DNA of 30,655 nt from a virus, in IMG/VR virus record IMGVR_UViG_3300044815_000082, positions 1 to 30,655 of that record; one strand, 5' to 3'. The position numbers were made by a program, and so were the translations under genes. Positions within the stretch are counted from its first letter, which is position 1, and the number at the start of each line of letters is the position of its first letter. The notes below the pieces were generated by a model. That model was not told the origin of the DNA, made no database searches, and saw only the letters and a program-made list of their open reading frames with translations. This document shows positions 7,863 through 23,152 of the stretch, one piece after another.

Positions 7863-9152
7863 TTACACGTTGTGGTACCAGTCGAGGTAGATCGGGTCGC
7901 GGCAGGCTTCTTGGAGAGCCAAGATTTCGAACTCGACCATCCGGGTATAGGGTTTGTCACCGAATTTCCGAACCGTGATCGTCTCATCTTCCTGATCGCG
8001 AGGACCGACCGCCACGATGAACGGCGTGTGCATCAGACTGTGCTCTTTGACTTTCTGGGAGACGTTCTCGTCCCGGATGTCGAGCTTCACACGGATGCCG
8101 CTGTTGCGCATCGCCTTGGCGACATCGGTTGCATACTGGACGGTTTGTGGCTTGATCGACATGACCACCACTTGCACCGGAGCCAGCCAGATCGGCAGCT
8201 TGCCTTCGTAGTGCTCCAGCAGGATGCCGATGAAACGTTCGAACGATCCGAGGATTGCCCGGTGCAGCATCACCGGATGCTTCTTGGTCCCATCATCGGC
8301 CGCGTAGAACGCCCAGAGTTTCTTGGGGAGCACGAAATCCATCTGGATCGTTCCGCACTGCCATCGCCGACCTTTGTTGTCGGTCAAGGCGAATTCCAGC
8401 TTGGGGCCGTAGAAGGCGCCTTCACCGGGTTGCAGCTTGTAGGTCAGTCCAGCGGCGGCGACGGCTTCCGCCAGCGCCGCTTCAGCCTTATCCCACGTCT
8501 CGTCGTCCCCAGCCCGGTCTTCCGGGCGCGTCGAGAAACCAATCTCGATGTCCTTGAACCCGAAATCTTCGTAGACGCTCATCAGCAGATCACAGAAGGC
8601 CTTGGTTTCGGCCGCCACCTGATCCTCTGTGCAGAAAATGTGCGCGTCGTCCTGCGTGAACTGGCGAACGCGCATGATGCCGTGCAGAGCGCCGGAGGGT
8701 TCGTTGCGGTGGCAGCAGCCGAACTCGGCCATACGCCACGGCAGTTGGCGGTGGCTGACAGTCCCGGCGTTAAAAATCTGGACGTGTCCGGGACAGTTCA
8801 TCGCTTTGAAGGCGTACTCCGGGATGACGATGTCATCACCTTCAACGATCATGCTCTCACCGATCCGACGATCCGGAAGTTGGTCGAGATCGCCCGTCAG
8901 GAACATGTTGTCGCGATAGTGCTCCCAATGGCCAGAAGCCTCGAACAGGCCCTTGGTGTACAGTTGCGGAGTCTTCACCTCGCCGTAGCCAGCCTTATCC
9001 AGCTTGGCCCGGATGTAGTTCTCGATGGTTCGGAACAGGGTATGCCCGCGTTCATGCCAGAACACCGAGCCAGCGGCTTCTTCCTGCATGTGGAACAGAT
9101 CGAGTTCACGACCGATGCGACGATGGTCGTGGATGGCGAGTTCTTCGGACAT
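7863..9152 (-). CDS. thrS: Threonyl-tRNA synthetase, lacking TGS and editing domains, 429 aa
   Basis: This class II synthetase would charge tRNA-Thr in the cytoplasm. The whole catalytic core is present: RDHRRIG-like start (DHRRIGRELDLFHMQEEA), motif 2 (HRNEPSGALHGIMRVRQFTQ) and motif 3 (LHRAILGSFERFIGI). The three zinc ligands are also present (C120, H171, H297). The HGTP anticodon-binding domain follows from about 324. Bacterial ThrRS is about 640 aa. Here the first 240 or so residues, which hold the TGS domain and the N2 editing domain that removes Ser from tRNA-Thr, are absent. The protein begins cleanly at the core. ATG at 9152 has GAGG upstream; a GTG at 9164 is in frame but overlaps the previous gene. 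Confidence 0.93.
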   Translation of the reverse strand: MSEELAIHDHRRIGRELDLFHMQEEAAGSVFWHERGHTLFRTIENYIRAKLDKAGYGEVKTPQLYTKGLFEASGHWEHYRDNMFLTGDLDQLPDRRIGESMIVEGDDIVIPEYAFKAMNCPGHVQIFNAGTVSHRQLPWRMAEFGCCHRNEPSGALHGIMRVRQFTQDDAHIFCTEDQVAAETKAFCDLLMSVYEDFGFKDIEIGFSTRPEDRAGDDETWDKAEAALAEAVAAAGLTYKLQPGEGAFYGPKLEFALTDNKGRRWQCGTIQMDFVLPKKLWAFYAADDGTKKHPVMLHRAILGSFERFIGILLEHYEGKLPIWLAPVQVVVMSIKPQTVQYATDVAKAMRNSGIRVKLDIRDENVSQKVKEHSLMHTPFIVAVGPRDQEDETITVRKFGDKPYTRMVEFEILALQEACRDPIYLDWYHNV

Positions 9153-20312: not shown

Positions 20313-21862
20313 TCAGAACGTGTCCGTGATCAGCGGAGTATCCGAGTATGTTCCTCGAATGCGTTCAGTGACAAACGGCATGATCGGATGCGCCAGACGA
20401 CAAGCTTTGTCGAGCGCCCACATCATCGTTTGCAAGGCTCCCAAGTCATTCTCGTCGTAGAGACGGCTCTTCGTGGCCTCGATATACCACCCGCAAAGGT
20501 CATCAAAAATGAACCTGCGTAGTTCGTGGGCGGCTTCGTGGTACCGAAGGTATCCATATGCCCCAAGGATTGCTCCAGATGCCGTCTCAGCCCTCTGAAT
20601 CATTTCCGCGTCGTCCGCGTGCAGATCAGAGGGAAGAGCCATCTCCGGCCTTCCTAGGCGGTCGTAGTGACCAAGCGCATACTTGGCTGCATTCCACAGT
20701 TTCGTGCGCATGGCTTTACCGGCTTGGAACTTGTCGTCCCACATCCGCATGTCCTGACCGGGTGTCGCAGCTTCGGCCAGAGCAAAGCGCATGGAGTCGC
20801 AGCCGTAGCGGTCGATGATGTCGAGCGGGTCGATACCGTTGTTGTCCGACTTGCTCATCTTCTTGCCGAACTTGTCGCGAATCAGACCATGCAGGAAGAT
20901 GGTCTTGAACGGCAATTGGTCGGTCAGCAGCAGGCCCATCATCAACATCCGGGCGCACCAGAAAAAGAGGATGTCGTCGGCGGTCTCGATCATTGCGGCC
21001 GGGTAGAACTGCCGCATGTCCTCGGTGTCGTCCGGCCAGCCCAATGTGGCGAAAGGCCACAGAGCCGAACTGAACCACGTGTCGAGGCAACCGCTCTCAC
21101 GCTCCCAGCCTTCGCCGGGAGACTTGTCAGATATGACGAGTTGTGCGCCACTATTGGTCATATCTGACGACTTCCAGATCGGGAGTTTATGTCCCCATCG
21201 GATTTGGCGGCTGATGCACCACGGCTCGATTTTCTCGATGAAATTGCGGAGCGTGCCTTCTTGACCAGCGGGGATAATCTCGATGGCGCCATCGTCCAGT
21301 TCGGCGATCAGGCGTTTGGCCAACGGCTCCATGTCGAGCCACCAATCGCCATCCTTCTGGTAGAGCATCCCAGCGGTTTCACAGCGTTCCATGGCCGTCA
21401 AGACGGCACGCGAGTACCCTTCGTCCAGCGTGAACGTCTCACGGCTCCAGTCGCAACTGGTACCGCAAGAACGAAGCTGTCCGCTGATCGTCGAGCGCAG
21501 GTTCTTCTTGTAGTTTTCGGCGAACGCATCGAACGCGGCCGGATCATCGGGGTTAAGCCCTTCTTCCAGCATCAGCGCGATGATCTTGGTGTTCGTCGCC
21601 ATACCCGCGTGGTCGGTTCCGGGGAGCCACAGGGTGGCATCTCCGATCATCCGGTGATAGCGGGTGGAAATGTCTTGCAGGGTTGCGAAGAGCGCATGAC
21701 CCATATGCAAGATGCCGGTGATATTCGGCGGGGGCATGGGAAGGAAATAAGCAGGACCATTGCCTTGAGGGGCGAATGCACCGCTGGTTTCCCATGCTTG
21801 ATAGATGGAAGATTCTTCGATGCGATGATCGAAGTTCTTCGTTAGTTGCTTACGTCCAACAT
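20313..21862 (-). CDS. valS: Compact valyl-tRNA synthetase without CP1 editing domain; start in another frame
   Basis: This class I synthetase would charge tRNA-Val. From the ATG at 21737 the frame runs 474 aa and shows PPPNITGILHMGHA (HIGH motif), TDHAG, CISRQIRWGHKLPIW, DTWFSSALWPFATLGWP and GKKMSKSDNNG. The CP1 editing domain, about 200 residues between LYQKDGDWW and MEPLAKRLI, is missing, and so is the C-terminal coiled coil; bacterial ValRS is about 880-950 aa. Upstream the same frame encodes a normal ValRS N-terminus (NFDHRIEESSIYQAWETSGA) back to about 21840. However, it has no ATG, GTG or TTG start. The ATG with a good AGGAG site, at 21862, is in another frame and stops after six codons. 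One extra base near 21848-21852, or a -1 shift, would join them into about 516 aa. Confidence 0.88.
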
Positions 21863-21883
21863 GTACCGAGTCTCCTGTTTGTC

Positions 21884-22165: not shown

Positions 22166-23152
22166 CTATTTTGACGACAGATACCATTTGTTGGCGGTTC
22201 GGATCATGTCGGTCAGGCCAAACTTCGGAGCCCAGCCAAGAACGTCCTTGGCCTTGCGGTTGTCGGCCACCAGTTTCATCGGATCACCGGGCCGACGCGG
22301 ACAGTCCATGATCCAGACTTTCTTGCCGGTCTCTTCCTCGACCGCCGAGATCACCTCGCGCACCGAGAATCCCGATCCGCATCCGAGGTTGAAGTGCTCG
22401 TACACCGGCCCCTCGACCGAGAGCAGGCGCTTCATCGCCAAGACATGTGCGTCGGCCAGATCGTTGACGTGAACGTAGTCTCGGATGCAGGTTCCGTCGA
22501 ACGATTCGTAGTCCGTTCCGAACACCTTGAACGGCTTGCCCGTGTGCGCGGCTTCGAGCACCAACGGAATGATGTGGGTTTCGGGATCGTGGCTCTCGCC
22601 GATCCGGCCTTCAGGGTCTGCGCCAGCGGCGTTGAAATACCGCAGGACCGTTGCCTTCATGGTGGAGTGCAGAACGATGTCTTGGATTGCCTGCTCGACC
22701 ATCAACTTGGTGCGGCCGTAAGGATTCACCGGAATTTGAGTGTGGTACTCGTCGATGATCCCGCCACCCTTCGGGTTTCCGAACGTCGCGCAGGTTGAAG
22801 AGAACACGACCGGAATTTCGAATTGTTGTGCCCAGCACAGCACGACCAAGCTGCCACCGACGTTGTTCATGTAGAACCGCGCGGTCTCGGTAAGCGATTC
22901 ACCGACCTCGATATAGCCCGCCAGATGGATGATCGCGCACGGCCGAAGCTTCCCGAGAACGGAGACGACTTCGTCCTCGTTGCGGACGTTCGTCTCGTCG
23001 TAATCTCCCCATTGAATGGCTTCTATCTCGCTGTTCACGCCGTTGTCGATGACGAACGGCTCGAACCCGGCTTCGGCCAGTTTCATGCAGACGTGGGAGC
23101 CGATGTAGCCCGCGCCTCCGGTGACGACGACGATTTTGTTAGGCTGGGACAT
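22166..23152 (-). CDS. galE: UDP-glucose 4-epimerase-like NAD-dependent epimerase, 328 aa
   Basis: The protein interconverts UDP-glucose and UDP-galactose, or a related nucleotide-sugar pair, in the cytoplasm. IVVVTGGAGYIGSHVC (about residues 7-22) is the NAD-binding glycine motif. PYGRTKLMVEQ carries the YxxxK catalytic pair. STCATFGNP supplies the catalytic Ser/Thr, and YFNAAGADPEGRIGE and IRDYVHVNDLADAH are GalE-typical. The length is normal (about 330-340 aa). ATG at 23152 overlaps the end of the upstream gene by 14 bp. It probably feeds sugar donors to the phage's glycan cassette or alters host surface glycans. Confidence 0.92.
   Translation of the reverse strand: MSQPNKIVVVTGGAGYIGSHVCMKLAEAGFEPFVIDNGVNSEIEAIQWGDYDETNVRNEDEVVSVLGKLRPCAIIHLAGYIEVGESLTETARFYMNNVGGSLVVLCWAQQFEIPVVFSSTCATFGNPKGGGIIDEYHTQIPVNPYGRTKLMVEQAIQDIVLHSTMKATVLRYFNAAGADPEGRIGESHDPETHIIPLVLEAAHTGKPFKVFGTDYESFDGTCIRDYVHVNDLADAHVLAMKRLLSVEGPVYEHFNLGCGSGFSVREVISAVEEETGKKVWIMDCPRRPGDPMKLVADNRKAKDVLGWAPKFGLTDMIRTANKWYLSSK

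Follow-up and report, generated by a model that had tools for sequence, protein, structure and literature searches.

A nearly valine-free valyl-tRNA synthetase without editing domain in a phage clade, and cognate-free synthetases in other huge phages

A 30,655-base IMG/VR virus record, analysed over its whole length and referred to here as the window, encodes a valyl-tRNA synthetase (ValRS) that lacks the CP1 editing domain and contains almost no valine. A scan of other huge phages found synthetases that lack their cognate residue for six specificities besides Val, i.e., Ile, Leu, Asp, Asn, a Phe-like one and probably Arg. We consider it likely that the window gene represents an active phage ValRS which was cut down to a catalytic core and a short anticodon-binding bundle and was purged of valine so that it can be made when Val-tRNA(Val) is scarce; it is probably an emergency ValRS induced by this shortage. 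On balance, we also favor the broader proposal that huge phages possess a kit for emergency tRNA charging, i.e., synthetases free of their own residue that would be switched on by shortage-reading leader peptides and would restart translation after host or defence shut-down of charging. The window clade would cover only valine in this kit, using a leader that acts in translation and has one Val codon. As the ValRS gene is accompanied, in the ORF and profile reading of the window, by genes for ThrRS, GluRS and AspRS and by genes resembling virion genes, we regard the window as part of a large phage.

Table 1. Positions of the ValRS gene, its motifs and its leader in the window
Feature	Position	Strand	Basis or remark
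ValRS ORF, CP1-less and nearly valine-free	20313..21845	-	from CTA at 21845; 510 aa plus stop; Pfam and NCBIfam valS
CP1 junction (cellular ValRS: about 185-240 aa at this place)	21348..21356	-	alignments; beta-hairpin in model
HIGH-type motif HMGH	21696..21707	-	sequence alignment
KMSKS motif	20847..20861	-	sequence alignment
Truncated helical anticodon-binding region	20355..20726	-	partial Pfam Anticodon_1 match; model helices 379-506
Leader ATG TTG GAC GTA AGC AAC TAA (MLDVSN-stop)	21842..21862	-	counterpart in all 11 clade genes
Leader Val codon GTA	21851..21853	-	GTA or GTC in 11 of 11 genes
14-nt frame-breaking insert	21840..21853	-	without it the frame would give M-L-D-K-N-F-D (compare bacterial ...LDKTFDP)
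Shine-Dalgarno-like AGGAG of the leader ATG	21872..21876	-	sequence

The original prediction, that CP1 has been removed from an otherwise intact catalytic core, is borne out by two of the checks it had proposed, as both an alignment and a structure prediction show a ValRS fold without CP1. The Pfam tRNA-synt_1 match is split (profile positions 2-159 and 187-413), and the intervening CP1 part is absent; in the alignment with Thermus ValRS (PDB 1gax) the window ORF stops at residue ~170 and resumes at ~358, i.e., it lacks about residues 171-357, and in alignments with bacterial homologues the CP1 block sits at this gap. A beta-hairpin (residues 170-179) bridges the gap in the predicted structure (pLDDT 91.2, pTM 0.90), which matches 1gax with a Z score of 40.6 and an rmsd of 1.9 A (499/519 residues). 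As this superposition stops at residue 705 of the 862 in Thermus ValRS, the protein has no C-terminal coiled coil, also as predicted. The class Ia catalytic core is present with its HIGH and KMSKS motifs, which had been described as intact, and the valine pocket (P41, N44, D81, W456, I491 and W495; Thermus numbering) is kept as well. Scores for the NCBIfam valS equivalog (528 and 478 bits) were below the curated cut-offs (704 and 612, respectively), which is consistent with the missing domains. As the CP1 domain was not found, we classify the enzyme as a ValRS variant without editing domain; from its sequence it is predicted to be a ValRS-type enzyme that charges tRNA-Val.

No CP1 fragment was found elsewhere in the whole window, which speaks against the relocation of CP1 that the original prediction had considered, and no free CP1 protein was found; ten records gave a single match, located inside a phage IleRS. 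Searches of ten phage records for trans-editing factors (tRNA_SAD, YbaK-type and DTD) were negative. Based on established ValRS biochemistry, mischarging of tRNA-Val with Thr would be expected.

The loss of CP1 is shared by nine phage relatives (51-82% identity), found in records of up to 578 kb, and by the cultured Stenotrophomonas phage RAS14, which has the same architecture; a second record, CM1, gives an identical protein. All phage records other than RAS14 and CM1 are metagenomic. The window ValRS, its relatives and RAS14 form one clade in the tree (support 99/95), with Ka/Ks values of about 0.13-0.17 that indicate purifying selection. An assembly gap as the source of the CP1 gap was rejected, as the loss is fixed across a phage clade with these Ka/Ks values; the clade-wide deletion, the single clade and the Ka/Ks together argue that the enzyme has been selected for function. 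Among the 30 cellular ValRS loci found in a single genome scan, which included some contig fragments that could not be judged, all full-length ones carry CP1. CP1-less ValRS do not appear in the BFVD listing, where absence is uninformative. A specialised tRNA substrate, one of the explanations initially offered for the missing editing domain, is not favored because five ordinary tRNA-Val (anticodons GAC, TAC and CAC; A73 and CCA) are among the 71 tRNA matches of the sister 578-kb phage. The same phage carries two tRNA genes with CTA anticodons, i.e., amber suppressors (L112:10000-10156, G001). Near tRNA genes, five clade-1 genomes contain an ORF of ~180-200 aa with a partial class II core (tRNA-synt_2b; L111 and similar loci). 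Searches for known RNA elements in the window and four relatives found only tRNAs.

With 3 Val among 509 residues (0.6%), the window ORF is near-free, rather than free, of valine. Across the clade, ValRS contain 0 to 4 Val per about 500 residues, as compared to 4.3-8.3% Val in bacterial ValRS (4.2-8.0% in the aligned core alone) and a median of 7-8% in other phage proteins; among 735 phage ORFs of at least 150 codons, the most Val-poor are the ValRS of this clade. In the aligned core, positions at which Val is conserved elsewhere are occupied by Ile, Leu, Ala, Thr, Lys or other residues in the phage ValRS. No depletion of the cognate amino acid is seen in the Thr, Glu and Asp synthetases of the window or in the IleRS of its sister phages, and the purge in the window clade is thus valine-specific. 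The sister-phage IleRS (L090 in G001 and L089 in G007) have a full CP1 and normal Ile content, unlike the ValRS of the same genomes. The window ThrRS (7863-9152, minus strand) lacks the N-terminal editing domain, as do its relatives from other huge phages, one of which (L100, G004) has only 5 Thr in 401 residues. A UDP-glucose 4-epimerase-like gene (22166-23140, minus strand) lies upstream of the ValRS gene.

One could regard the gene as an ordinary streamlined viral ValRS with a composition that arose by drift or as a by-product of genome bias, as reduction is common in these phages, where ThrRS and some LeuRS also lack editing domains. We consider this highly improbable, as two clade members, RAS14 and L010, have 0 Val in 449 and 517 residues, respectively, where about 29-35 would be expected, and as neighboring proteins are normal in Val. 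Moreover, this explanation is contradicted by the scan of other huge phages presented below, in which, for each of seven specificities, it is the cognate residue that is absent.

A second unusual property concerns the start of the gene. The ATG at 21862, which the original prediction had taken as the gene's end coordinate, is out of frame with the ValRS ORF and opens a 6-codon leader. Overall, while the loss of the editing domain was recognized correctly in that prediction, the phage origin, the near absence of valine and this out-of-frame leader were overlooked. In all 11 genes of the clade (i.e., the window gene, nine relatives and RAS14), the leader follows the pattern M-(T/S-x)-[L/W]-[D/E/N]-V-(0-2 residues)-stop, with C as the next base, and the ValRS frame is -1 relative to the leader. 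The main frame starts at the last base of the codon preceding the leader stop, with which it overlaps as ATGA in RAS14 and as CTGA or CTAA in the other genes. The frame is broken by an insert of 8, 14 or 17 nt, always 2 mod 3, that is opened by the Val codon in every gene; its excision would give M-(x-x)-L-D-K-T-F-D, which corresponds to bacterial N-termini such as TLDKTFDP. GTA is the Val codon in 9 of 11 leaders, as compared to 0 of 24 Val codons in the bodies of the ten non-RAS14 ORFs (the RAS14 body has no Val).

A usable start codon in the main frame was found only in RAS14 (the ATG overlapping the leader stop); four genes have an upstream GTG, and the other six have GTT at that place. 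The first in-frame ATG of the window ORF (21737, inside PMPPPN) is too late to represent the start, as the 35 codons before it show a strong third-position excess. Codons past the leader stop likewise show an excess at the third position (73:58:192), which indicates that the main frame is translated right after the leader stop. An assembly error at the start codon was rejected, as the identical frame break occurs in 11 genes. There is no terminator between the leader and the window ValRS gene; the leader overlaps the ORF.

These data are consistent with a leader that reports the supply of Val-tRNA(Val). A ribosome stalled at the leader Val codon may shift to the -1 frame and so produce ValRS, and fast decoding of this codon would lead to the leader stop instead. 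Sensing of Val-tRNA(Val) by a leader would be of use only if shortage increased the synthesis of ValRS. The behavior of ribosomes at hungry codons is established, while no natural starvation-specific example of hungry-codon shifting is known according to a review (PMC5009743). As a slow A site has a greater effect on +1 than on -1 shifts (PMC5009743), a -1 shift at the leader Val codon is somewhat disfavored. No canonical slippery site is seen in the leader, which is a further point against this step; by inspection, no X XXY YYZ site is common to the 11 leaders (RAS14 has G TTA AAC).

Translational coupling alone is a serious rival, which we rate as possible though not probable. According to this explanation, ribosomes finish at the leader stop and reinitiate at the ATGA, CTGA or CTAA overlap, so that ValRS would be made at a low constitutive level and the Val codon would not be a sensor. 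The position at which the main frame opens in 11 of 11 genes agrees with it, and the ATGA overlap of RAS14, where the start is an ATG, suits plain termination-reinitiation. On the other hand, CTA is not an established start codon, and the [L/W]-[D/E/N]-V part of the leader has been kept across proteins that are only 33-35% identical. Moreover, coupling would cut ValRS synthesis when Val-tRNA is short, a poor fit with a Val-free body.

We also scanned huge phages for ORFs lacking a residue, blind to function, and named the hits by Pfam and NCBIfam. A 634-kb record (LR745206) encodes a very divergent CP1-less ValRS without Val (0 of 443 residues) that falls outside the window clade in the tree; its two relatives also lack Val (0 of 442 and 0 of 445 residues), and a third CP1-less ValRS lineage, from a 508-kb record, has 0 Val in 509 residues. 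LR745206 also encodes an IleRS with 0 Ile in 735 residues (64 expected) and four further proteins that each lack their cognate residue entirely: AspRS (Asp), AsnRS (Asn), a PheS-like protein (Phe) and an ArgRS-like protein (Arg), the last with a weak assignment (3e-10). The Phe-free PheS-like protein (L226:9321-10397) matches NCBIfam SrmL, a PheS-related ligase, far better than pheS. Further hits were a CP1-less LeuRS with 0 Leu in 508 residues (LR756501) and, in G009, an IleRS without Ile and an AsnRS without Asn. The two Ile-free IleRS outside LR745206 have 0 Ile in 738 and 742 residues, the latter being in the 508-kb record. Complete absence of the cognate residue spans proteins of 359-742 residues. 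The remaining hits below 1e-9 were long, compositionally odd or antisense ORFs, and weaker depletion occurred in short unassigned ORFs.

As an alternative explanation for the purge, an enzyme without editing that mischarges tRNA-Val with Thr might have lost its valines to avoid corrupting itself. While CP1 loss and Val depletion coincide in all three phage ValRS lineages, we find this self-protection improbable. The cognate-free phage IleRS keep a CP1-sized insertion, which argues that freedom from the cognate residue is independent of the loss of proofreading; the purge is just as complete in AspRS, AsnRS and the ArgRS-like protein, all of which are without a comparable editing domain. Conversely, a CP1-less LeuRS (L099) is not Leu-free.

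Most cognate-free genes in these other phages are preceded by a short ORF rich in the same residue and by a terminator-like hairpin ~30-70 nt before the start. Such leaders were found for IleRS (MNFNTIIIIRYSIPWSIPIG, MRSTCIIIIHRLTPWIFQW and MNFNSIIIIRKSTPWYKPIG), AspRS (MKNIRLNDDRFLLTNCKADW), AsnRS-ArgRS (MKTMTINNRNRLTDII), AsnRS (MKSLSINNNNHNRKP), the PheRS-like gene (MNTNTTFNFFFSHKMV) and ValRS (MKTINLNNLVVVNVSV, MNNKSENNLVVVTDIVKMLV, MKSIFALNTVIVTTRV and MKHINSNNVVVVNRNPVC), with runs that include IIII, FFF, NNNN, VVV and DD. Each of the four Val-free ValRS genes outside the window clade is preceded by a leader rich in Val and by a terminator-like hairpin. The T tail of the hairpin that follows MNNKSENNLVVVTDIVKMLV is poor, and this hairpin did not receive a terminator call. 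The cognate residue ranked 1-3 of 20 in all nine leaders tested (single-leader p-values were modest), and a search of terminator-preceded genes in which leaders were chosen blind to composition recovered identical peptides at eight of the genes. At the LR745206 ValRS gene, which has a leader and a 13-bp terminator, the 1:2, 2:3 and 3:4 hairpins of classical attenuation are predicted; the 2:3 pairing is -12.8 kcal at this gene and weaker in several others. The alternative pairing between region 2 and the terminator arm is clear for this gene (matched by 0 of 500 shuffles) and for the PheRS-like gene (3 of 500). This anatomy (i.e., leader, terminator and antiterminator) leads us to predict that the LR745206 ValRS gene is controlled by leader-peptide transcription attenuation.

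No cognate-rich leader was found for the Leu-free LeuRS (LR756501), and none for an AsnRS with 1 Asn in the 508-kb phage. A 421-aa LeuRS-like ORF (L282, G011) with no room for CP1 has an LLLL leader (MITTMNTNLLLLADS) and a terminator-like hairpin, and contains 20 Leu. Since the Leu-free LeuRS is leaderless and the LeuRS with the LLLL leader is not Leu-free, leader and purge are not always paired. An ORF that looks like a glutamine synthetase lies behind a terminator-like hairpin in LR756501, a 735-kb phage (L242, near 13282).

Overall, we envisage that Val-tRNA(Val) could become scarce, for example when the host is shut off, during starvation or when charged tRNA is removed by a defence. A ValRS without Val could then still be translated, and its synthesis may be raised by attenuation in LR745206 and its kin and by the leader Val codon in the window clade. 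The CP1-less enzyme would make some Thr-tRNA(Val), which may be tolerated or cleared by host ValRS, the likely proofreader if there is any; the loss of CP1 is best regarded as one aspect of the reduction.

Huge phages encode up to 15 synthetases each, and the parts of the report covered here do not mention synthetase composition (Al-Shayeb 2020, PMC7162821). We found no report of CP1-less phage ValRS or of cognate-free synthetases in the literature searched, which covered few subscription journals. Translation of a synthetase normally needs the very charged tRNA that the enzyme makes, and the fact that enzymes as long as 742 residues have lost every cognate residue shows strong selection against this dependence. 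This suggests that single charged tRNA species become exhausted during phage infection, makes the purpose of huge-phage synthetases testable and raises the possibility that viral synthetase genes are controlled by leaders. The natural enzymes, both cognate-free and editing-free, could serve research on mistranslation and translation systems, and their simple sequence signature may help to spot such kits elsewhere.

With bacterial ValRS (Thermus, PDB 1gax/1ivs) the window enzyme shares the fold, the HIGH and KMSKS motifs, the valine pocket and the helical anticodon-binding bundle; it differs in lacking CP1 and the C-terminal coiled coil, in its valine content of 0.6% and in its out-of-frame leader. 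The LeuRS of Mycoplasma mobile (PDB 3ziu) belongs to class I and is naturally devoid of CP1 (PMC3834818). It was a Foldseek hit, and differs from the window ValRS in specificity and in its cellular origin. In attenuation of bacterial operons (of the ilv, his, trp and pheST type), a leader rich in the regulated amino acid is followed by a terminator. LR745206, G009, G010 and G011 resemble these operons in their cognate-rich leaders and terminator-like hairpins; unlike in bacteria, the genes are those of viruses, the enzymes lack the sensed residue, and control in the window clade, which has no terminator, would be translational. Expression of RF2 (prfB) requires a +1 programmed frameshift with an early in-frame stop as sensor. 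The window-clade leaders are similar to prfB in that a short ORF has an early stop followed by C, the main product lies in another frame and the gene encodes a translation component, while the shift would be -1 rather than +1, there is no slippery run, and the putative sensor is a Val codon rather than a stop. Finally, biosynthetic enzymes show a mild bias against the residue they supply. The phage synthetases show the same avoidance, carried to complete absence over 359-742 residues.
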